The notes under the pieces are model-generated. The model was not told the origin of the DNA. It ran no database searches and was given only the letters and a program-made list of their open reading frames with translations. Below are positions 1-55,133 of a stretch of DNA of 56,171 nucleotides, piece after piece (position 1 is the stretch's first letter; each line of letters begins with the position of its first letter). The stretch is from a virus. Where the stretch lies: the IMG/VR virus record IMGVR_UViG_3300027782_000107, positions 1 to 56,171 of that record; one strand, 5' to 3'. A program made the position numbers and the translations under genes.

Positions 1-161
1 TCAACTTTAATAGCATCAGAAGATCCTTCAGGTTTTAATCCTTGCATCTTCTCCATCATCTGCTTCATTGAGCTGACATTTTCTAATGCGACTTTTTGTA
101 CATCTAGTAATGATTTAAAATCACTAGATGATACATGAACTTGAATTGGTGGTTTTGCCAT
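1..161 (-). CDS. 29: Tail tape measure protein, N-terminal fragment (gp29-like)
   Basis: The reading frame starts at an ATG at 161 and runs off the left edge, so only about 53 residues are visible. They begin MAKPPIQVHVSSSDFKSLL and continue as a charged, probably helical segment with a Met/Lys/Gln-rich stretch (MKQMMEKMQG). An AGAGG ribosome-binding sequence lies just upstream. The assignment is by position: in tailed phages the tape measure gene directly follows the pair of tail assembly chaperone genes, and this frame starts 3 nt after the gp51-like ORF. The fragment is too short to confirm this by motif. It could be another hub protein. Confidence 0.5.
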   Translation of the reverse strand, partial: MAKPPIQVHVSSSDFKSLLDVQKVALENVSSMKQMMEKMQGLKPEGSSDAIKV

Positions 162-164
162 CTG

Positions 165-347
165 TTACATCCTCTTTTTGGATTCTATTCTTTTCTTTTC
201 TTCTTCAAGATACTGAATTAGCATAAAGACATACACTTCTCGTTCGAAGGGTATCATGTCTTCCAGCTCAGCCAAAGAGTATTTGTGGTACTGCATCATC
301 GCAAAATTCATTTTATAATAGTTCTCAAGCGATTCATGACTGAGCAA
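165..347 (-). CDS. 51: Baseplate hub assembly protein, gp51-like (probably expressed as a gp26 frameshift extension)
   Basis: This small acidic, helical ORF of about 60 residues contains YYKMNFAMMQYHKYSLAELE and a Lys/Glu-rich C-terminus. T4-like marine phages carry a similar short protein, annotated as baseplate hub assembly catalyst gp51, after gp26. There is no ATG at the apparent 5' end: the longest version needs a TTG at 347, and the first ATG is internal at 311. The frame is exactly -1 relative to gp26 and continues without a stop across the T-run at the gp26 stop codon. It is therefore plausibly translated as a C-terminal extension of gp26 (about 302 residues), like the lambda G/GT chaperones. 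The name rests on position and family memory. Confidence 0.6.
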   Translation of the reverse strand: MLSHESLENYYKMNFAMMQYHKYSLAELEDMIPFEREVYVFMLIQYLEEEKKRIESKKRM

Positions 348-349
348 TA

Positions 350-374
350 CTAAAAAAAACTTTGGAGTCCCTCC
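350..374 (-). promoter_or_regulatory. Candidate programmed -1 ribosomal frameshift site (internal SD, slippery T-run, stop)
   Basis: On the minus strand an SD-like GGAGGG (374 to 369) is followed after 9 nt by a run of eight T (359 to 352) and then the gp26 stop TAG (352 to 350). The T-run contains a perfect T_TTT_TTT slippery heptamer in the gp26 frame. A -1 slip reads TTA GTA TTG and enters the gp51-like frame directly. The SD-to-slippery spacing is close to that of the E. coli dnaX frameshift signal. Efficiency cannot be judged from sequence. Confidence 0.65.
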
Positions 375-1072
375 AGCATCTTAACATGGTGTCTATTACA
401 CACTGGACAATCGTATTGAATTTCTTTTCTAATCTTTGGCATAGTTTCAAAGAATTTTTGAACTCTTGCGAACTGCTCTGAAGATAGATTTTCAATAAAT
501 GCTAATAGTTCTTCTCTGGTACTTTCTTTAGCATAAAATAATTGTTCACCATCATAAATGTAATCAATAGATAAAGCCATAATATCAAAGACTGTATCTA
601 AGTCATTAACATCAAACCCTTCTAATTTTTTAATAACATCAACTGTAGGATACTTCATCACTACACCGACATTACCAAATAATTCGATCTTGTTGGTATG
701 ATCGTCACCTTTTTGAACTTGAATAGTAGACAAGTCAACAGTAACAGTGGCTTTAGCCTTTTCGTTCTGTTCACCATGATCCAAATCGCAAGCAAAAATT
801 AAATCAACAGTTTCACCAACAGATTTACCACGGATCTGAGTAAACATATACTCTAGATCGAATGTTGCTAGTTTTTCAACATCCAGTTTATCTTGTACGC
901 AAGACTTAACGACTTGCTTTAATGTTTCAATCATTGTTACAACATCTTCAGATTGCTGAGCAATCAAAAGTGCTTTTTCCTCTTTAACGAGGAATGGACG
1001 ATATTTTACTGTCGCTCCACTTGAAGGCACAACCAATGTATAGATTGGCGCATTCATCATAGGTAAAGCCAT
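350..1072 (-). CDS. 26: Baseplate hub subunit gp26
   Basis: The 240-residue product matches the T4-like gp26 / T4 baseplate family: an N-terminal segment with YTLVVPSSGATVKYRPFLVK followed by EEKALLIAQQ, a helical middle, and a C-terminal pair of cysteines and histidines (CPVCNRHH) that may bind metal. T4 gp26 is about 208 residues. The protein acts in hub assembly and is probably the equivalent of the tail assembly chaperone found before tape measure genes. A good SD (AAGGAG) precedes the ATG at 1072 and lies in the end of gene 16. The last codons are AGT TTT TTT TAG, the proposed frameshift site. Confidence 0.85.
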   Translation of the reverse strand: MALPMMNAPIYTLVVPSSGATVKYRPFLVKEEKALLIAQQSEDVVTMIETLKQVVKSCVQDKLDVEKLATFDLEYMFTQIRGKSVGETVDLIFACDLDHGEQNEKAKATVTVDLSTIQVQKGDDHTNKIELFGNVGVVMKYPTVDVIKKLEGFDVNDLDTVFDIMALSIDYIYDGEQLFYAKESTREELLAFIENLSSEQFARVQKFFETMPKIRKEIQYDCPVCNRHHVKMLEGLQSFF

Positions 1073-1502: not shown

Positions 1503-2258
1503 TTAGAATTTTAATAATCCTGGAAGTTTTGTGACTCCGTAAGATAAAGCAGAACCAGTCAAGAAGTTACCTGCTCTGGTACCAAGTGTATTGTTAAGAG
1601 TTTCTTGGAATCCGCTGAAATTCTGGGTCATTCTTTCCAGTAAATTAGTAGGAACTTTCTGACCATCAGCCAGCGGAGACTTAGGTGTTGCAATCCAATT
1701 TTTGTACTGCATACCAATGCTAATCTTCATAACATCTTTTGCGGCATAGTCCATCTGAATGGAACTAATAGTTTTAGGATAGCACTCAAACAAAGTTACG
1801 TCATAGCGAGTTTTATCATTGATATCTTGAACTTCAATACGCATATCAGCGATATATGTATTGTAATAGTTGTATGTTTTAGTCACTGGGTTTGAAATCA
1901 AATTGGACCAGTCATCAAACAACGATTTAACTTTCATATCTACGTCTACATAAAAAGACATGGTGATGTTGTCATATATCTTCTCATAAGGAACTTCACG
2001 GAACTCACCGAACATTCTATTTTGAGTAGTAGAGTAGTTTGTTCCTGGAATTTGAATTTGGTCACAGAACAATAAAATCTTTTGTAACTGTCCTGGATTG
2101 ATACCAGCTGGTGGAGTGAACATAACTGCATAGCGATTAGTTCTTGCCAGACCCCCAGATTTGATGTGAGAAATAAATTGGTTTATAGGTTTCTGCGCAC
2201 CAGTACCAGTGATTCTATCTGTTACATCTTTTGTGGAAAATGGTAAATTAAGTGCCAT
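1503..2258 (-). CDS. 54: Baseplate tail tube initiator gp54
   Basis: The 251-residue product has the tail-tube-like fold signature shared by gp54, gp48 and gp19: NRYAVMFTPPAG near residue 42, a segment with FCDQIQIPGTNYSTTQNR, then FREVPYEKIYDNITMSFYVD, and later FECYPKTISSIQMDYAAKD. In T4 gp54 (about 320 residues) sits on the hub cap and starts tube polymerisation. An SD (AGAAGGGC) precedes the ATG. It follows the previous gene by 1 nt on the minus strand. The T4 48-54 pair is split here: gene 48 lies on the plus strand at 3346. Confusion with another tube-like protein is possible, but gp48 and gp19 are accounted for. Confidence 0.8.
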   Translation of the reverse strand: MALNLPFSTKDVTDRITGTGAQKPINQFISHIKSGGLARTNRYAVMFTPPAGINPGQLQKILLFCDQIQIPGTNYSTTQNRMFGEFREVPYEKIYDNITMSFYVDVDMKVKSLFDDWSNLISNPVTKTYNYYNTYIADMRIEVQDINDKTRYDVTLFECYPKTISSIQMDYAAKDVMKISIGMQYKNWIATPKSPLADGQKVPTNLLERMTQNFSGFQETLNNTLGTRAGNFLTGSALSYGVTKLPGLLKF

Positions 2259-17765: not shown

Positions 17766-20700
17766 ATGTTAGACTTCAATACCGAACCGTATAATGACGA
17801 TTTTGATGAGAACAATAAGTTCTATCGAATTTTATTCCGTCCATCTTTTGCTGTCCAAGCCAGAGAATTAACTCAACTTCAGAGTATTCTGCAGCAGCAA
17901 ATTGCTCGCACAGGGGACCATCTTTTTAAACAAGGTGCAATGGTTGTCCCTGGACAAATATTTTGCGACACTAATTATAATTATGTTAAATTGCAAACTT
18001 TTTATAATTCAGATGTTATTGAAACATATATTCAAAATTTTGCCGACAGAGAAATCATAGGTTCTTCTGGTGTTAAAGCCACAGTCTTAAAAGTTGTTCG
18101 TGAAGAAGGTAATGATGAAACTACTCTGTATGTTCGTTATTCATCAAGTGGAACAGATACTACAACTAAAACATTCTCAAATAATGAAGTAATTACAACT
18201 ACTAGCGGAACAGGTACATATACAGTTCAAGCAATTGCCTCTAATGCAACTGGTGTTGGTTCTGCTGCTATTATTCAACGTGGTGTATACTATGTTAATG
18301 GGTATTTTGTTCTTTGCGATGCTCAAACTATTATCCTTGACAAGTATACTAATACACCAACATATCGTGTTGGTCTAACTATTAATGAAGTTAAAACAAC
18401 TCCAGAAGATGACGAAACTCTACTAGACAATGCTCAGACTTCATTTAACTATGCTGCTCCAGGCGCACATCGTTATTATATCGATTTAGTTCTAACAAAA
18501 ATACCATTATTAAATAGTGCTTATACATGGACAGCAAATACTCCAGTCTTTAAAGGTGACGTAATTAAATCTGGTAATCTTTATTACCAAATAACTATTG
18601 CAGGCACAACTGGTTCAACTGCACCATCATTTACTTCTGGTGCAACTGCTAACGGCACAGCAACTCTACAATATATTCAAACATATATTCCATCTTTAGA
18701 TGTTGATTCTGATTCTAATTTTATTGAATTATTATCAACAAATACTGGGACTGTTTTAACGCAAGTAACTGAAACTGCATATTCTCAAATTGAAAAAACC
18801 TTTGCTCGTCGCACATTTGACGAATCTGGTAACTATACAGTTAGACCATTTAAGATTGATGTTCGTGAACATAGAAATAATAATCGTGGCGCATGGGTTA
18901 CTGATCGTGCATATTTAATCGGTGATGTTGTAGTTCATAATGGTATCACTTATGTAGCAACAGACAATGGAACTTCTAAAACTGTTCCTCCAGTTCATAC
19001 TACTGGAATCGTATCTGACAGTTCTACCACTGGTGGTGTTCTTTGGGAATATAATCAAACACCATTCTATAATCGTGGTATCTATAGCCCAACAGATGCA
19101 GCAAATCCAGGTAGTGATACTAAACTTGCTATTGGTTTAGAACCTGGAAAGGCATATATTCAGGGATATGAGGTTCAAAAGACTTCCACTGAATATATCA
19201 CAATTGACAAAGCACGTGATTCAGTACAAGTTAACAATAGTTACTTAACATCACCTGTTGGAAATTTTGTTTACGTTAAAAACATAAACTCTTTACCACC
19301 ATTTGATTCAACATCAGGAATGCCTACTGTAACTCTTTATAATAGATTTACATATGCAGTCGGCACGTCACCACTTGGTTCTGTAGCTGCTACTGTTGCT
19401 ATTTCTGGATCGGCAGGACAGTTTACATGTGGTAATTCTAATTTAGAAGTTGGAGATTTAATTACTATTACTGGTACAAAGGGTGGAACTTCTACTTTTA
19501 CTGGCTACACAACTGGCACAACATATAAAGTTTCTGCTGTTACTGGTGCGTCACCAAGTGTAACTGGATTCACTTTAACTACTACTGCTGATTCTGCATT
19601 ATCAACTTCAGCTGGTACACTAACTGGATTAACTTACACTGTTACAAGTGTAAATGCAAAGGCGATTGGTACTGCACGTGTTCGTGGTATTGAGTGGGAC
19701 AATGGAACCATCGGTACACAAACCGCAGTGTATAAACTTTATCTGTTTGATGTAAATTTAACAACAGGATTTGATTTTGCCAGAGATGTAAAATCATTCT
19801 TCTATAGCCGTTCAGACACAAACTTAAACTTTACCGCAGACATCAATGAAATCACTACGAATTTAATTGGTTCTGGTACAACATACAGTTCTTATCCAGG
19901 AACTCGTGGAGCATCAACTACCATTTATGGTGTTGGCACTGCATTTTCTGGTGGAACAAATAGACCAGTCTTTAGTCCTGCGTTAAAAATTGGTGATTTT
20001 ATTTACGTTGGTTCTACAGCTAATCGTCGTAGAGTTGTTACTATTACAAACAACGAACAAATTACAGTTGATACTGCAGTTACTGTTGATGGTGGAATTA
20101 TTAGTCTCATCCAAAGTGGTGTGCAAGAACCACAGAACGATTCTTTAATCTATCCTTTACCAAACTATGCAATTAAATCAGTTCGTGCAGCTGATAACGT
20201 AACCAAGAATATTATTTACTACGGTATGCAATATTTGACTGGATCAACTGGTTCTGGATCTGGTGGATCTTGTACTCTGCCACTAACAGCTTCGTCAGGT
20301 GTATTCGCTGATCCAGCTGAGACTGACAATTATATCCTTGTATATAATGATTCCACTGCAGGTGGTGTAATAGTTAACCCAACAGGATATACTTCTGGTG
20401 GAAGTTCTTCTATTACATTTACGTTACCAGACACATATGCCAGCAAAGACTTTATTGTTATGGCAACTATTAAGAAAGTTGGTATTGGAGAAAAGAGTAA
20501 AACTCTATCTTCTGCAACAGTAACTTTAACGACACAGGTAACTGCAACTAAATCTGTTCTATCATTGGGTAAAGCAGATATTCTTCGTATCAAATCTGTC
20601 ATGATGGATACTGGTACATTTGCATCACCAACTGGTAATTATACTGTTGATATATCAGATCGTTACGATCTTGATAATGGTCAAAGAGATACACATTATG

Positions 20701-23700
20701 ATATTGGAAAATTGTTACTAAAACAATCTTATGCTCCACCATCTGCACCAATTGTAATAACTTTTAGTTGGTTTGAACATGGTACTGGAGATTACTTCAC
20801 TAAAAATTCATATCCGATTGATACCACTATTAAAGCTGTAGACGTGCCATCATATGATGGTAACAACTTACGTGATGTTCTAGATTTCCGACCAAGAATT
20901 GGTGATGCTGGCGCAGTATTTACTGGTGGAAATGCATCATTCTCAATGACTCCAAAACGTGGTCAAGATATCACATTGGATTATTCATATTATCTTGGTC
21001 GTCAAGAAAAAATCGCCATAGATTTTACTGGAAGATTCTTTAACATTAAAGGTGTATCTGCATTAGTTCCAGTAGAACCAAATGATCCAGTTATTGGTAT
21101 GGTTCTGTATAAACTTAATCTTGAGCCATTTACCTTTGGCACAGCAAACACTAATGTTATTGTTAATCAAGTTGACAATAAGCGTTACACAATGCGTGAC
21201 ATTGGTAAACTAGAAAAACGTATTGATAATCTAGAATACTATACTTCTTTATCTTTACTAGAACAAGAAACTAAATCTCTTTCTATTACCGACTCTCAAG
21301 GATTAGAGAGATTTAAAAATGGATTTATTGTAGACTCATTCACAGGACATAATGTTGGTGATGTGACATCTCCAGATTACCTATGCTCTGTTGATATGGA
21401 GAAGGGTGAACTGCGTCCATTCTATTCAATGAACAACATAAATCTTGTAGAAAATAAAACAAACGATGGAGATCGTACAACAGCTGGATATAAACTTTAC
21501 GGTGATGTTATCACATTACCAGTTAAAGAAGATATTCCACTTATCACTCAAGCATATGCTTCTCGTTTAGAGAATGTTAATCCATTCGCTGTGTTTAACT
21601 TCCTTGGTGATATTCGTCTAAACCCATCTTCAGATGATTGGTTTGAAACAGTGAGGGCACCAGATATTGTAAGAAACGTAGAAGGTAATTATAACACTAT
21701 CGCTAATCTTGCTGAAAAAGCAGGTATTCTTGGTACAGTTTGGAACGCATGGCAAACCAGCTGGGTTGGTGGTACATATGTTGCTGCTCAATGGGCTCAA
21801 CAGGATGGTGCTTTCCGTAATACATATCAAACTGTTGCGAATCAAGTTGGGCTATCACGTACTGGAATTAGATCAACAATTAATGTTCAGATGGACAGAC
21901 AAGTTGTAGATGATAGAATAATTTCTACTGCTGTTATCCCATACATCCGCCAACGAAATGTATTAGTACAAGTTAAGGCATTAAAACCAAATACTCGTTT
22001 CTACCCGTACTTTGATAATATTTCTGTTGCTGAATATTGTACTCCGTCTTCTTATCTAACATATACATTGGCAAGTTCAACTGCTCCAGACTTTGAAACA
22101 GCAAAAAATGCTGGTGTTGATGCCACAGATACTGCACGTATTATTGATAATATCCCAACTGTTACCAACGCAGATAGTTATGGTAATATGTGTTTAAATA
22201 TTGGTGATAGAATCCAAGGTGGTTCATCAAATGCAACCGCAGTAGTTGTCGGTAAAGACCGTAATTCTGATACTGGAGTGCGTCGTTTACATATTGTAAA
22301 CATCAAGGGTACATTTACTACTGGTGAAACTATAACTGCTTATGGTACTGGATCTGGTGCGACTGCTACTATTAGTGGAACTATGCCAACTAATAAATTA
22401 CAGGGTGATGCATTAACAACAAACTCTGTCGGTGAATTAAACTTTATTTTCTGGATTCCAAATTATGATTCCATTAAATTCCGTACTGGTGTTCGTGAGT
22501 TTAAATTACTAGACGTTAGCACTTCTGATGGTCAATCAACATCGTCTTCAAAAGTTCAATACGAAGCAACTGGAACTCTTCAAACTAGACAACAAACTAT
22601 CAACTCTGTTCGTAATGCAGTTATTGCTCAAGAAAGTCTTGAAGACAGCACTGTAATTGTTAATGCGTCAAACCGTATTATTGATTCCGTGCAGACTGTG
22701 TTTGCAGCACCCAGCGGTACTGACCCATTGGCACAAACATTCTTGGTTCAATCTCCAGGTGGAGCATTCTTAAGTAAGGTTGATATCTTCTTTGCCACTA
22801 GAGATGCTGGAGTTCCAGTTACACTAGAAATTCGTGAAGTTGTAAATGGATATCCAGGAAAACGAATTCTTCCATTCTCTAAAGTAACTTTAAAAACAGA
22901 ACAAGTTAATGCTCCAATTTTTGGTACAACAATTGATACAACCCTGTATAACACTGTTACTCTTGATGGTGCGACTGTTGCCAAGTATGATAAACCAACA
23001 TCTTTTGTGTTCCCATCTCCTGTTTATGTTCAAGACGGAGAAGAATATGCAATAATTCTTTCTACTGATTGTATTAATTACAAAGTTTGGATTGCTCAGA
23101 TGGGCGATATAATTCCAGACTCTAATAGAGCCATCTCTGAACAACCATATAATGGTGTTCTATTCAAATCTCAAAACTCTTCTACTTGGACTGCAAATCA
23201 AGACCAAGATTTGAAGTTTACAATTTATCGTTGTAAGTTTAATACTGATGTTACAGGTAGCGTAGAATTTGTTAATGATGTATTATCCAATAATCTAATA
23301 GAAGCAGATCCATTCCAGACTACAAGTGGAACAAACAAACTTCGTGTATGGCATGAAAATCATGGTATGTTTGTTGATTCAAAAGTGGTATTCGATAATG
23401 TTAACAAAACAGTTTATCAAGGTACTACAGCTACAGGTACATTTACTTGTGCTGATAATGATCCAACTATCACAGGAGTAGGAACATCGTTTAATTCAAT
23501 ACTAAATCCTGTGGGCACTGCATTTATTCGTGCGTCAGATAATAAGGTTATAGGTATTATTGCTTCAATAACTAGTAATACAAGTTTAGAATTATCTTCT
23601 AATGCTTCTGTAACTGTTGCTTCTGCTGTTGCATTTAAATTGGCTCCATCAATAAATGGTATCCCTGTCACTGAGATCTATACAAGCGCAGCTGCAAATG

Positions 23701-24995
23701 CTCAAATTCAACATACAATTAGTGATGTTGATTTAGATTCTTATTGTATTACTGCTAGCACTAATGCAACTACCACAGGTTACTCTGGTGGAAGCAGAGT
23801 TCGTGCCAGCAGCAACATAGTATATGACATGGCGATTCCATCAATACAATCGCAGAACTTCTCAGATACAAATATTGATTTTACCATGAAGACTACTTCT
23901 GGCAAATCAGTGGATGGCGCAGAGACTCCATATACGTATGGATCATACAAAGGTATTGTTACAAACAATAATAATATGTTCTTTGCTCCACAGGTAGTTG
24001 CTTCTACAGTAAATCAATCTTCAGGTAAAACTGTTACACTTCAGGCAACTATTAGTTCTGATAATGATGCATTATCACCTATTATTGATAGTCATAGAAC
24101 TTCTCTAATTACGGTTTCTAACAAAATTAATAAGCCATCAGAAACTAATGTAAACGTGTCTTTAATAGACAATAGAACAGTATTCACTGGTGCCACTGGA
24201 GCGTTTAGTTTTGTAAATTTAGGTACTGCTTGGGCAGCAACTACTTCTAAAGCAGTTGGTGATCAAGTTAACTATCTTGGTAATCTGTATACAGTCACCA
24301 TCGCAGGAACTACCAGTACAGCTGGTCCAACCCACACAGCTGGTTTATCTGTAAATGGCACAGCTACTTTACTATTTTCTGGTAAATGTACTACTATTAC
24401 GACTTCAGTCGCTGGTGTAGCTGCATTAGTTCTAACTATTCAAGTTGGTAAATACATTACGGTTTCTGGCTCTACTACTGGTGGCAATGATGGAACTTAT
24501 CTTGTGACCAGTGTTGCTGGAGACGGATCAACCACAGGAACAATTACTGTTTCTAGAACGACTAATTTTACCAGTGAATCTGCTATTAGTGGAACTACAG
24601 TTAAATTGAGAACTCTGTTCGTTGATGAAATTGCTCCAGTGGGCAGTTCTTCAGTGAATAAATATGTAACGAAAGCGATTACTCTTTCCAATCCATCTAA
24701 CTTCTTTAGAATTAGATACGCAGGTAACATTCCACAAGAAGCCGATGTATTGGTTTACTATAAGACTTCTCCTGTTGGATCTACATTGGACTTTAATAGA
24801 ATAAACTGGACTTTATCTGACCCAGATGCTGCAATCGTTAAGGTTCAGAATGGAGATGATACCTTTATTGATGTGGATTACTCCGAAGAGGGTCTATCCC
24901 AGTTTGACGTAATTGCAGTTAAGATCGTTATGCAGTCTACAAATAGTTCTGCAATACCGAGAATTAAAGATCTACGAATTATAGCGTGTGCCTAA
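17766..24995 (+). CDS. DUF4815-type giant baseplate/proximal fibre structural protein
   Basis: The protein has 2409 residues, the largest in the window. The N-terminus (LDFNTEPYNDDFDENNKFYR, FRPSFAVQARELTQLQSILQ, GDHLFKQGAMVVPG) is the DUF4815 signature found in long structural proteins of T4-like marine phages. Three CBM5/12-like modules occur at about 18522-18690, 18889-19056 and 24223-24390. A central region has YDLDNGQRDTHYDIG and DFRPRIGDAG, then a coiled-coil-like LEKRIDNLEYYTSLSLLEQE; a later part has DPLAQTFLVQSPGGAFLSKV and EYAIILSTD. Its place after gp8 corresponds to T4 gp9/gp10, the fibre-attachment part of the baseplate, so a role in holding or forming proximal fibres is likely. 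Exact function unknown. Confidence 0.75.
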   Translation: MLDFNTEPYNDDFDENNKFYRILFRPSFAVQARELTQLQSILQQQIARTGDHLFKQGAMVVPGQIFCDTNYNYVKLQTFYNSDVIETYIQNFADREIIGSSGVKATVLKVVREEGNDETTLYVRYSSSGTDTTTKTFSNNEVITTTSGTGTYTVQAIASNATGVGSAAIIQRGVYYVNGYFVLCDAQTIILDKYTNTPTYRVGLTINEVKTTPEDDETLLDNAQTSFNYAAPGAHRYYIDLVLTKIPLLNSAYTWTANTPVFKGDVIKSGNLYYQITIAGTTGSTAPSFTSGATANGTATLQYIQTYIPSLDVDSDSNFIELLSTNTGTVLTQVTETAYSQIEKTFARRTFDESGNYTVRPFKIDVREHRNNNRGAWVTDRAYLIGDVVVHNGITYVATDNGTSKTVPPVHTTGIVSDSSTTGGVLWEYNQTPFYNRGIYSPTDAANPGSDTKLAIGLEPGKAYIQGYEVQKTSTEYITIDKARDSVQVNNSYLTSPVGNFVYVKNINSLPPFDSTSGMPTVTLYNRFTYAVGTSPLGSVAATVAISGSAGQFTCGNSNLEVGDLITITGTKGGTSTFTGYTTGTTYKVSAVTGASPSVTGFTLTTTADSALSTSAGTLTGLTYTVTSVNAKAIGTARVRGIEWDNGTIGTQTAVYKLYLFDVNLTTGFDFARDVKSFFYSRSDTNLNFTADINEITTNLIGSGTTYSSYPGTRGASTTIYGVGTAFSGGTNRPVFSPALKIGDFIYVGSTANRRRVVTITNNEQITVDTAVTVDGGIISLIQSGVQEPQNDSLIYPLPNYAIKSVRAADNVTKNIIYYGMQYLTGSTGSGSGGSCTLPLTASSGVFADPAETDNYILVYNDSTAGGVIVNPTGYTSGGSSSITFTLPDTYASKDFIVMATIKKVGIGEKSKTLSSATVTLTTQVTATKSVLSLGKADILRIKSVMMDTGTFASPTGNYTVDISDRYDLDNGQRDTHYDIGKLLLKQSYAPPSAPIVITFSWFEHGTGDYFTKNSYPIDTTIKAVDVPSYDGNNLRDVLDFRPRIGDAGAVFTGGNASFSMTPKRGQDITLDYSYYLGRQEKIAIDFTGRFFNIKGVSALVPVEPNDPVIGMVLYKLNLEPFTFGTANTNVIVNQVDNKRYTMRDIGKLEKRIDNLEYYTSLSLLEQETKSLSITDSQGLERFKNGFIVDSFTGHNVGDVTSPDYLCSVDMEKGELRPFYSMNNINLVENKTNDGDRTTAGYKLYGDVITLPVKEDIPLITQAYASRLENVNPFAVFNFLGDIRLNPSSDDWFETVRAPDIVRNVEGNYNTIANLAEKAGILGTVWNAWQTSWVGGTYVAAQWAQQDGAFRNTYQTVANQVGLSRTGIRSTINVQMDRQVVDDRIISTAVIPYIRQRNVLVQVKALKPNTRFYPYFDNISVAEYCTPSSYLTYTLASSTAPDFETAKNAGVDATDTARIIDNIPTVTNADSYGNMCLNIGDRIQGGSSNATAVVVGKDRNSDTGVRRLHIVNIKGTFTTGETITAYGTGSGATATISGTMPTNKLQGDALTTNSVGELNFIFWIPNYDSIKFRTGVREFKLLDVSTSDGQSTSSSKVQYEATGTLQTRQQTINSVRNAVIAQESLEDSTVIVNASNRIIDSVQTVFAAPSGTDPLAQTFLVQSPGGAFLSKVDIFFATRDAGVPVTLEIREVVNGYPGKRILPFSKVTLKTEQVNAPIFGTTIDTTLYNTVTLDGATVAKYDKPTSFVFPSPVYVQDGEEYAIILSTDCINYKVWIAQMGDIIPDSNRAISEQPYNGVLFKSQNSSTWTANQDQDLKFTIYRCKFNTDVTGSVEFVNDVLSNNLIEADPFQTTSGTNKLRVWHENHGMFVDSKVVFDNVNKTVYQGTTATGTFTCADNDPTITGVGTSFNSILNPVGTAFIRASDNKVIGIIASITSNTSLELSSNASVTVASAVAFKLAPSINGIPVTEIYTSAAANAQIQHTISDVDLDSYCITASTNATTTGYSGGSRVRASSNIVYDMAIPSIQSQNFSDTNIDFTMKTTSGKSVDGAETPYTYGSYKGIVTNNNNMFFAPQVVASTVNQSSGKTVTLQATISSDNDALSPIIDSHRTSLITVSNKINKPSETNVNVSLIDNRTVFTGATGAFSFVNLGTAWAATTSKAVGDQVNYLGNLYTVTIAGTTSTAGPTHTAGLSVNGTATLLFSGKCTTITTSVAGVAALVLTIQVGKYITVSGSTTGGNDGTYLVTSVAGDGSTTGTITVSRTTNFTSESAISGTTVKLRTLFVDEIAPVGSSSVNKYVTKAITLSNPSNFFRIRYAGNIPQEADVLVYYKTSPVGSTLDFNRINWTLSDPDAAIVKVQNGDDTFIDVDYSEEGLSQFDVIAVKIVMQSTNSSAIPRIKDLRIIACA
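18522..24390 (+). repeat. Three CBM5/12-like modules in the DUF4815 protein
   Basis: Copies at about 18522-18690 (TWTANTPVFKGDVIKSGNLY), 18889-19056 (AWVTDRAYLIGDVVVHNGIT) and 24223-24390 (AWAATTSKAVGDQVNYLGNL) share the W..x..GDxVxxxGxxY...P pattern with the four modules of gp8. The second copy is the closest to a canonical chitin-binding module. The span given runs from first to last copy; the modules are not contiguous. Confidence 0.6.
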
Positions 24996-47682: not shown

Positions 47683-48684
47683 ATGCCGACCAATGTTTAT
47701 TTCACACAAGGCACTAAAAACGAACAGTTCCTTGTAGAAGATCTTATCATAGAATCTCTTAAGATTTATGGTCAGGACTTCTTTTACATTCCAAGAACAT
47801 TAGTATCAAAAGACGAGATTCTAGGTGAAGATCGTCTAAGCAAATTTACATCATCATTTCCAATTGAAATGTATTTTGAGAATGTAGACTCTTTCGAGGG
47901 TCAAGGTGCATTCATTCAAAAGTTTGGTTTAATGATGGAACAGTCTGCAACTATGGTAGTTGCACGTAGACGTTGGGAACAGATGGTTGGTCGCTTCGGT
48001 GCTACCATTATTCCTAGTCGTCCATGTGAAGGTGATTTGATTTATTTCCCTTTGACTAAGGGTATGTTTGAGATTAAATTCGTCAAGCATCAAGATCCAT
48101 TCTATCAACTTGGTAAACTATATGTTTACAAACTACAAGTTGAATTGTTCCAGTACTCTTCCGAGAAGATTGATACTGGTGTTCCTTCTATTGATGCATT
48201 TGAAACCCTTAAAACTTTCAGCACCAATACAACAAGAACACCTTATGGCGAAGTTATTAGTGTGACACTTACAAACGCTGGTGCTGGATATACTTCTGCT
48301 CCAACAGTATCATTTAGTGGAACAGGTTCTGGTGCAACTGCCACAGCATATCTTGGTAATGGAATAAATACAGGTAAGGTAACAAAGGTTATCGTCACAA
48401 ATCCAGGAGTTGGTTATACAACTGCACCAACTGTGGTGTTTACTGGTGGAGGATTTAGTACTACTGCAGTGGCAACTTCAACTATTGAAGCCAATGTGGA
48501 CAGAGTAGAATCTTTTGGTGATAACAATAAATTTAAGGTTCAGGCTGCAGACGTATTATTCAATGTGGCTAACCCATTCGGAGAAGTTGATATTACTTCT
48601 CCAGTGACAGTTCAATATGCAACATCGGCAGATATCACAACAATATTTGCAGACTCCACTACAATTACAGCAGATGCAGCTTAA
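47683..48684 (+). CDS. 14: Neck protein gp14 with GxGYTSAP repeats
   Basis: The 333-residue protein (T4 256) has the gp14 core: VYFTQGTKNEQFLVEDLIIE, DFFYIPRTLVSKDEILGEDR, FEGQGAFIQKFGLMMEQSAT and then GRFGATIIPSRPCEGDLIYF. Residues about 190-265 contain two beta repeats, NAGAGYTSAPTVSFSGTGSG and NPGVGYTTAPTVVFTGGGFS, as in gp8 and gp18. They explain most of the extra length. The C-terminus returns to NPFGEVDITSP. It forms the neck with gp13 and receives the tail. Confidence 0.9.
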   Translation: MPTNVYFTQGTKNEQFLVEDLIIESLKIYGQDFFYIPRTLVSKDEILGEDRLSKFTSSFPIEMYFENVDSFEGQGAFIQKFGLMMEQSATMVVARRRWEQMVGRFGATIIPSRPCEGDLIYFPLTKGMFEIKFVKHQDPFYQLGKLYVYKLQVELFQYSSEKIDTGVPSIDAFETLKTFSTNTTRTPYGEVISVTLTNAGAGYTSAPTVSFSGTGSGATATAYLGNGINTGKVTKVIVTNPGVGYTTAPTVVFTGGGFSTTAVATSTIEANVDRVESFGDNNKFKVQAADVLFNVANPFGEVDITSPVTVQYATSADITTIFADSTTITADAA

Positions 48685-52928: not shown

Positions 52929-55133
52929 ATGCCGTTTCAACTATCTCCAGGCGTTGCAGTCGTAGAAAAAGATTTCACTTCTATCGTTCCAGCCGTATCA
53001 TCATCTATTGGTGCTTTTGCTGGAGCATTCCCATGGGGTCCAACTTTGGAGCCTGTTACCGTTAGTTCGGAAAACGATTTAGTTCGTCGCTTCGGTAAAC
53101 CAAATGATAGCAATTTCCAATCTTTTTTCACAGCTGCAAACTTCCTATCTTATACAAACAACTTATTGCTAGTTCGTGCTGACGCTGGATCTTTGAATGC
53201 GGTTGGTGTCAAAACTGGTGGTATTTCTTCGTTCACAGTCGGTACTGCTGGCTCTGGATATACTTCTACTGCTGCTGCACCTGCTGTAACTATCGGTGCT
53301 CCGAATGATGCTGGTGGTATCCAAGCCGTTGGTACTGCAGTTCTTTCTGGTGGCGCAATTACTGCTGTTGCAGTTTCTGCTGGTGGTACTGGTTATTCTG
53401 GTACACCAACTGTAACTATCACTGCTGCTTCTGGTGGTTCAGGTGCTACATTTAGCGTAACAACTTCTGGTGGTGTAATTACTGCCGTTACAGTTCTTAC
53501 TGGTGGTACTGGATACAAAGGTACAGTTACTGCATCATTCTCTGGTGGTGGTGGTTCTGGTGCTTCTGCTGGTACAGTTACTGTTGCTTCTTCAAGCATT
53601 ACTGGAATTACTGTTGCTACTGCTGGTACTGGTTATACTTCTGCACCAAGCGTAACAGTTGCTGCTCCTCCATCTGGTGTTACTGCTGTTGCAACATCAA
53701 CAGTTACTACTGCTGGTTTAAAAATCATCAATGGTGAAACATACAACACTACTTTTGTTAATGGTGCTGGTGTGGTTGGATCGTTTGCTGCAAAATATCC
53801 AGGTGCTGCAGGTAACTCTTTAAAAGTTTCTATGGCTGACTCTGCAACTTGGTCTGCATGGGCTACTGAATATAAGAGCGAATTTGATTCTGCCCCAGGA
53901 ACTTCAACTTATGCTGCTGCAGAAAATCCATCAACTCCAACAACTCCAGTTGATGAACTACACATTATCGTTATTGACGAAGATGGTGTATTTACTGGTA
54001 CTCCAGGAACTGTATTAGAAAAATTTGCCTTTGTTTCTAAAGCAAGTGATGCTAAGAAATCTGATGGTACAAATAACTACTACAAAAACGTAATTAATTC
54101 TCGTTCTGAATACATTTGGTGGATGGATCATCCTACTGCTGTAACAGGTACAACTACTTGGGGATCTGTTGCAGCTGGCGCAACATTCCAAGCATTAACT
54201 TCTGCATTAACAGTTTCTCTATCTGGTGGTACTGATGATTTCAGCGTAACAGATGGTGAGTTACAAACTGCATATGCATTGTTTAATAATGCAGAACTCT
54301 ATGACATTAGCCTAGTATTGGCTGGTAAAGCATCTACTACTGTTGCAAATTATATCATCGGTAATGTTTGCGAAACTCGTTTAGATTGTGTAGCATTTAT
54401 CTCTCCACAAAATATTTCTTCTGGTGACCCAATCATTGGTTCTACATCTACTCAGGCAGATGATATCGTTGATTACCGTGACGCACTTCCAAGCACTTCA
54501 TATGCTGTTCTTGATTCTGGTTACAAATATCAATACGATCGCTATAGTGACTTATATCGTTGGGTTCCATTGAATGGTGACGTGGCTGGTTTATGTGCAC
54601 GTACTGACTACACTAACGATCCATGGTTCTCTCCAGGTGGTTTAAATCGTGGTCAAATCAAGAACGTAGTTCGTTTGGCATTCAATCCAAATAAAACAAG
54701 CAGAGATACTCTTTATAAGTCTGGTGTTAACCCAGTGGTTACATTCCCAGGAGAAGGTACTGTCTTGTTTGGTGATAAAACTCTATTGGCTAAGCCAAGT
54801 GCGTTTGATCGTATCAATGTGCGTCGTCTATTCATCGTTATGGAAAAAGCAATTGCAACTGCTGCTAAATTCCAGTTGTTCGAATTCAACGATGGATTTA
54901 CTCGTGCACAGTTCAAGAACTTAGTTGAACCATTCCTACGTGACGTACAAGGTCGTCGTGGTATTACTGATTTCGTTGTTAAGTGCGATGAGTCTAACAA
55001 CACAGGTGAAGTTATCGATCGTAACGAATTCGTTGCTGATATCTTCGTTAAGCCAAATCGTTCTATCAACTTTATCACTCTCAATTTCGTTGCTGCTCGT
55101 TCTGCGATTAACTTCTCAGAAATCGGTGCGTAA
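52929..55133 (+). CDS. 18: Tail sheath protein gp18 with beta-repeat insertion
   Basis: The 734-residue protein (T4 659) has the sheath N-terminus LSPGVAVVEKDFTSIVPAVS, FPWGPTLEPVTVSSENDLVR and FLSYTNNLLLVRAD, and the C-terminal core FSPGGLNRGQIKNVVRLAFN, RRLFIVMEKAIATAAKFQLF and NEFVADIFVKPNRSINFITL. Residues about 95-262 are an insertion with four GxGY repeats (TAGSGYTST, AGGTGYSGTPTVTI, TGGTGYKGTVTASF, TAGTGYTSAPSVTV). The sheath contracts to drive the tube through the envelope. The insertion likely sits on the outer surface as decoration. The AAGGAG SD is strong. Confidence 0.95.
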   Translation: MPFQLSPGVAVVEKDFTSIVPAVSSSIGAFAGAFPWGPTLEPVTVSSENDLVRRFGKPNDSNFQSFFTAANFLSYTNNLLLVRADAGSLNAVGVKTGGISSFTVGTAGSGYTSTAAAPAVTIGAPNDAGGIQAVGTAVLSGGAITAVAVSAGGTGYSGTPTVTITAASGGSGATFSVTTSGGVITAVTVLTGGTGYKGTVTASFSGGGGSGASAGTVTVASSSITGITVATAGTGYTSAPSVTVAAPPSGVTAVATSTVTTAGLKIINGETYNTTFVNGAGVVGSFAAKYPGAAGNSLKVSMADSATWSAWATEYKSEFDSAPGTSTYAAAENPSTPTTPVDELHIIVIDEDGVFTGTPGTVLEKFAFVSKASDAKKSDGTNNYYKNVINSRSEYIWWMDHPTAVTGTTTWGSVAAGATFQALTSALTVSLSGGTDDFSVTDGELQTAYALFNNAELYDISLVLAGKASTTVANYIIGNVCETRLDCVAFISPQNISSGDPIIGSTSTQADDIVDYRDALPSTSYAVLDSGYKYQYDRYSDLYRWVPLNGDVAGLCARTDYTNDPWFSPGGLNRGQIKNVVRLAFNPNKTSRDTLYKSGVNPVVTFPGEGTVLFGDKTLLAKPSAFDRINVRRLFIVMEKAIATAAKFQLFEFNDGFTRAQFKNLVEPFLRDVQGRRGITDFVVKCDESNNTGEVIDRNEFVADIFVKPNRSINFITLNFVAARSAINFSEIGA
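53211..53715 (+). repeat. GxGY beta-repeat insertion in tail sheath
   Basis: Four imperfect in-frame units of 35-45 residues, each containing a Gly-x-Gly-Tyr turn followed by a PxVT(I/V) strand and a GxGA segment. The same unit type appears in gp14 (48262-48480) and gp8. Confidence 0.8.

Follow-up and report, generated by a model that had tools for sequence, protein, structure and literature searches.

The locus described here raises the question of whether the gp26-like gene of IMGVR_UViG_3300027782_000107, a viral metagenome contig of 56,171 bases (hereafter the window, by which the whole analysed stretch of DNA is meant), is followed by a second, independent gene, or whether the two open reading frames (ORFs) that meet at a run of T residues make up a single gene that is read in two ways. 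A sequence-only reading had proposed that a programmed -1 frameshift fuses gp26 to the downstream ORF. The slippery heptamer, the selective constraint on the -1 frame, the collinear match to T4 gp51 and gene copy number all speak for this proposal, and together they make it very probable that the locus is a two-isoform tail-assembly-chaperone gene expressed by programmed -1 frameshifting in the manner of lambda G/GT.

The gp26-like protein matches PF12322 in a Pfam profile search with an E value of 5.5e-60 and a score of 203 bits, against a curated cut-off of 24.5, and it matches phrog_150 with an E value of 1.9e-66. The protein ends in LEGLQSFF and the gene in CTG GAG GGA CTC CAA AGT TTT TTT TAG, so the anticipated AGT TTT TTT TAG terminus with its eight T residues is indeed present; both strands of the 56 kb window considered, this run (359..352, minus strand) is the sole one of eight or more T. 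Read across the slip site, the -1 frame gives SFF-LVLLSHESLENYYKMNFAMMQYHKYSL... and leads, as had been proposed, into the downstream ORF without interruption, remaining open for 62 codons until a stop that ends at position 165. The absence of a 5' ATG from that ORF was likewise borne out, there being none before the residues YYKM, though a TTG at codon 3 offers a possible start, and the GGAGGG said to lie 9 nt upstream of T_TTT_TTT was found at 374..369. The -1 ORF matches phrog_634 ('baseplate hub assembly catalyst') with an E value of 1.5e-25. It matches the gp26 family, phrog_150, as well, at positions 234-276, which indicates that fused members belong to that family (Table 1).

Table 1. 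Features of the window at and around the gp26 junction
Feature	Position	Strand	Remarks
Tape measure gene start, cut by the window edge	3..161	-	homologue in contig L008
-1 extension, 62 codons + stop; predicted C-terminal domain of the long form (TAC-NC)	165..353	-	phrog_634; T4 gp51 C-terminus match
gp26-like gene, 240 aa; predicted short tail-assembly chaperone (TAC-N) frame	350..1072	-	PF12322 T4_baseplate; phrog_150
Slippery heptamer T_TTT_TTT	353..359	-	within 8-T run 352-359; TAG stop 350-352
SD-like GGAGGG, probable frameshift stimulator	369..374	-	9 nt upstream of heptamer
Tail tube protein gene	1503..2258	-	PF23849, E 1.9e-8; phrog_45, E 2e-37

The genes around the junction also match the suggestion that the pair precedes a tape measure gene: the full homologue of the next gene, a protein of 651 aa encoded on contig L008, matches phrog_4372, 'tail length tape measure protein', with an E value of 4e-15. 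The tail tube gene stands two genes upstream of gp26 in the same gene run; a small-terminase-like gene separates them, and a DNA-end-protector gene lies beyond the tube gene.

In the mechanism proposed, most ribosomes would stop at TAG and release the short form (gp26, TAC-N), while a minority, stalled by contact between GGAGGG and the anti-SD, would slip back one base on T_TTT_TTT and synthesize a long form of ~302 residues, whose extra domain would correspond to the C-terminal part encoded in frame in T4 gp51. On the pattern of lambda G/GT, the tape measure protein would then acquire a coat of many short molecules and few long ones, and tail tube protein would be brought in by the extra domain of the long form. 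In T4 and its close relatives both forms would instead be supplied by duplicated genes, 26 for the short and 51 for the long. We infer that slippage occurs and that the products act as chaperones, and the lambda analogy underlies what is proposed about the efficiency of slippage, the ratio of short to long form and the binding of tape measure and tube. Xu, Hendrix and Duda (2004) reportedly described the G/GT system of lambda together with the G-T frameshift general among long-tailed phages, which has been reviewed in PMC5009743. Lambda slips on GGGAAAG, whereas the window would slip on T_TTT_TTY with an upstream SD-like stimulator, and no homology to lambda G is claimed.

The junction is kept far beyond the window. 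Unique gp26 junctions numbering 154 were assembled from cyanophage-like contigs and from Methylophilales, Sinorhizobium, Cronobacter, Stenotrophomonas, Vibrio, Rhizobium and Aeromonas phages, and T_TTT_TT[C/T/G] together with a -1 ORF is retained in 151 of them (97 with TTC, 53 with TTT and one with TTG), so that the site in the window is no chance occurrence. At least eight phage groups carry both the heptamer and the -1 ORF. Among the unique junctions the slip site mostly lies 0 or 1 codon from the gp26 stop, and the extension has a median length of 62 codons in the -1 frame versus 5 in the +1 frame. In 80 viral contigs with 60-97% identity to the window gp26 the junction reads AGT or AAT, then TTT, TT[T/C] and the stop, and it is the -1 frame that leads into the extension; the same junction type occurs in the isolates P-SSM2, S-CAM3, Melnitz-2, phiM7, LPCS28, Mendera, K566, RHph_I34 and phiAS5; a scan of viral contigs with the Vibrio K566 protein as query returned no relatives. 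Relatives with the two ORFs in other phases or separated were sought and none was found, and even the three Ackermannviridae without a clean heptamer keep the -1 phase. In contig L018 the -1 frame stops within a few codons and the sequence jumps from TTTTTTTTGAG to the middle of the extension, an apparent exception that looks like a local deletion or an assembly fault in one contig.

Synonymous codon choice around the slip site agrees with the signal as well. Within 22 nt 5' of the heptamer, 144 of the 151 junctions have an SD-like 4-mer, as compared with 11% at random places, and so do 38 of 42 cluster representatives, as compared with ~10% at random gp26 positions; in the representatives its end most commonly lies 10 nt upstream of the heptamer. 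GAG encodes the conserved Glu of LEGLQSFF in 128 of 138 junctions versus 28% elsewhere in gp26, and in 26 of 30 cluster representatives versus 27% elsewhere. At the slip site itself, the first Phe codon is TTT in all 42 representatives, against 64-73% elsewhere in gp26, and the codon preceding it always ends in T. These biases indicate that the upstream SD-like motif is under selection. With over 20 nt between it and the candidate start codons, in P-SSM2 as in the window, the motif is suitably placed for stimulating slippage and too distant for initiation.

Programmed slippage with such an element is familiar from dnaX of E. coli, which slips on A_AAA_AAG with an SD-like stimulator ~10 nt 5' and a strong 3' stem-loop. 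The SD-like stimulator ~10 nt 5' of the heptamer is common to dnaX and the window; however, a search for 3' RNA structure after the window slip site revealed none that was significant (z = +0.6), and across 28 representatives the mean z for downstream structure was -1.1. The P-SSM2-like contigs (L098-L177) do possess a hairpin, AGTATG...CATACT, ~5 nt after the heptamer. Its outer pairs are invariant despite possible synonymous changes, and covariation is weak; because there is so little covariation, the hairpin is not counted as evidence.

If the two ORFs were instead separate genes, the downstream one would be started on its own at a TTG, ATG or GTG, or by termination-reinitiation at the gp26 stop. 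Most records do annotate it as its own gene and candidate starts exist: besides the TTG at codon 3 in the window, an ATG is found at codon 4, just after the slip site, in P-SSM2-like relatives, and TAATG or TGATG overlaps at the gp26 stop of K566, Mendera, RHph_I34 and Vibrio 1.255 could permit reinitiation. The -1 frame, however, is already constrained ahead of these starts. Across 57 unique junctions of the window's clade, extension codons 3-13, which precede the YYKM ATG, show a pN/pS of 0.21 in the -1 frame versus 1.26 and 0.77 in the other frames, and codons 14-55 a pN/pS of 0.09 in the -1 frame; these are pooled pairwise counts, so that relatedness inflates their apparent precision, but the frame contrast is still plain. 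The pattern shows that purifying selection acts on the -1 frame upstream of any usual start codon. Furthermore, ATG, GTG and TTG are all absent from the first 14 codons in 16 of the 57 close relatives, 52 of the 151 junctions offer no usual start within 8 codons, and the first in S-CAM3 comes only at codon 18; independent initiation fails in those relatives that lack a start codon. Separate genes would also leave the heptamer and the synonymous choice of GAG unexplained, would place the SD-like motif too far from the candidate starts, and sit poorly with the existence of a fused homologue, T4 gp51. Taken together, this evidence leaves two separate genes very improbable.

Transcriptional slippage appears, if anything, slightly less probable. 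RNA polymerase would in this case add a U on the 8-T run and produce mRNAs in which the frames are joined, and the fact that the window's run of eight T is the only one of its kind on either strand is in line with such a process. Yet 97 of the 151 junctions consist only of TTTTTTC, with six T. Such a run is as a rule not long enough for polymerase to slip efficiently, though it makes a good ribosomal heptamer, and its shortness in most relatives renders transcriptional slippage unlikely; the SD-like signal and the T_TTT_TTY codon register, moreover, are expected only for ribosomal slippage. As to a sequencing or assembly error that split one gene at the homopolymer, such runs are prone to indel errors and L018 does have a local deletion at the junction. 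Nevertheless, independent assemblies and finished genomes of isolates share this junction, in 151 unique sequences altogether, its codons are constrained in both frames, and most junctions have six T followed by C. Error is refuted by this conservation, and its probability is practically nil.

Comparison with T4 bears on the identity of the predicted long form. T4 gp26 and gp51 both belong to PF12322 and to phrog_150, whose coverage is positions 14-235 for T4 gp26 and 13-280 for T4 gp51. By hhalign, the window gp26 aligns to residues 12-200 of T4 gp51 (E 1e-6) and the window -1 ORF to residues 202-244 (E 1e-6), and these collinear alignments imply that T4 gp51 is the in-frame long form. T4 gp26, which ends ...RGLKEFFELL, is to judge from its sequence a paralogue equivalent to the short form. 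There is no frameshift at gp26 in T4, where the short and long forms are two genes on opposite strands, whereas the window has one gene and a -1 ORF; the family, PF12322, and the short/long logic are the same in both phages. In whole records, each of 11 phages with the split arrangement has a single PF12322 gene. Two, of which one is long, are present in T4, RB43 and Aeromonas phage 31. Such counts would be predicted were both a short and a long form required in each of these phages. The earlier suggestion that gp26/gp51 are the counterpart of G/GT therefore stands insofar as the two make a short/long pair by sequence, but needs amending as to its parts, for the downstream ORF matches only the last ~45 residues of T4 gp51, the whole of which corresponds to the fusion. 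The T4 proteins gp26 and gp51 thus look like a short/long chaperone pair, with duplication replacing frameshifting. Both have been listed as hub assembly chaperones, gp51 being required and absent from the particle, and a 2010 review described gp51 as essential and of unknown function (PMC3004832).

The three junctions of the 154 without a clean heptamer come from Vibrio phage 1.255.O (L092), Klebsiella May (L093) and Salmonella Det7 (L094), all Ackermannviridae. In each the gp26 homologue is followed by the conserved -1 ORF with its phase kept, the junction sequences being CTT TTT CGC TAA and ATT TTC ATT TAA, and in May and Det7 the -1 ORF has no start codon before the conserved residues YFVM. 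A non-canonical slip is possible in these phages; no earlier account of the missing heptamer was found in the literature searched, although one may exist beyond its scope. It could be that the frameshift is ancestral across the wider T4-like phages and was replaced in the T4 lineage by duplication into a short gene (26) and a fused long gene (51), with Ackermannviridae making their long form by a non-canonical slip, a scenario whose chances of being right or wrong we judge to be even. The idea of an ancestral frameshift and duplication in T4 may already be contained in Vladimirov et al. (2022).

Structure models are no more than suggestive of a chaperone fold. The AF2 model of gp26 (pLDDT 86.7) has no match among solved structures that is significant by E value. 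A weak match is to the HK97 tail assembly chaperone 2ob9 (probability 0.63, E 1.4, ~58 columns, 2.5-3.2 A), which is the sole PDB match with a probability above 0.2 among the matches listed. The T4-gp51-type model (pLDDT 87.5) has predicted helices at 208-221, 226-230 and 234-248 in the region matching the extension, and its comparison with solved structures yielded no tail-assembly chaperone; a sequence search of solved structures gave no match.

The sequence-only reading took such a frameshift to be undescribed for T4-type hub genes, a point on which it was mistaken. According to two papers that cite it (PMC10885494, PMC12846349), the study of Vladimirov, Gautam & Davidson (2022, Virology 566:9-15, PMID 34826709) identified the tail-assembly chaperone genes of T4-like phages. 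The PRFect paper cites that study for T4-like phages with one short and one fused longer gene (PMC10885494), and the phage Adele paper for poly-T -1 slippery sequences in T4-like TAC-N genes (PMC12846349); from these citing papers and the tests reported here, we infer that the genes identified were gp26 and gp51. To the extent that the citing papers portray it, this prior identification makes the present finding correct but not new in kind. In a 2016 review, T4 had been named as an exception to the otherwise conserved G-T frameshift (PMC5009743). A similar TAC locus is described in Pseudomonas phage Adele and the Vandenendeviridae, with a conserved -1 site that has a T run (GTTTTT) at the TAC-N 3' end and before the tape measure gene, as in the window (PMC12846349); these are other phage families than the window's, and the likeness is one of description. 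What is gained over the 2022 identification is breadth, a test of whether the SD-like stimulator is under selection, and tidier annotation. An earlier account of codon-level selection for the upstream SD-like element was not found in the literature searched and may exist beyond its scope.

As to annotation, the public record of the S-CAM3 extension (L002:3024-3215) is shortened to 37 aa, and that of Cronobacter LPCS28 (L087:2190-2364) leaves the -1 extension out. Truncated or omitted extensions probably represent a class of annotation error common in T4-like genomes, and because many public genomes split, truncate or omit the -1 extension, one joined coding sequence should replace two.

Elsewhere in the window, the neck (Hc2-like) and tail sheath proteins (47683-48684 and 52929-55133) have a common family of inserted segments, also found in baseplate and fibre proteins, which is probably a mobile Ig-like domain. 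An ORF of 2409 aa at positions 17766-24995, most of which matches phrog_358 (unknown function), encodes a very large virion-type protein.
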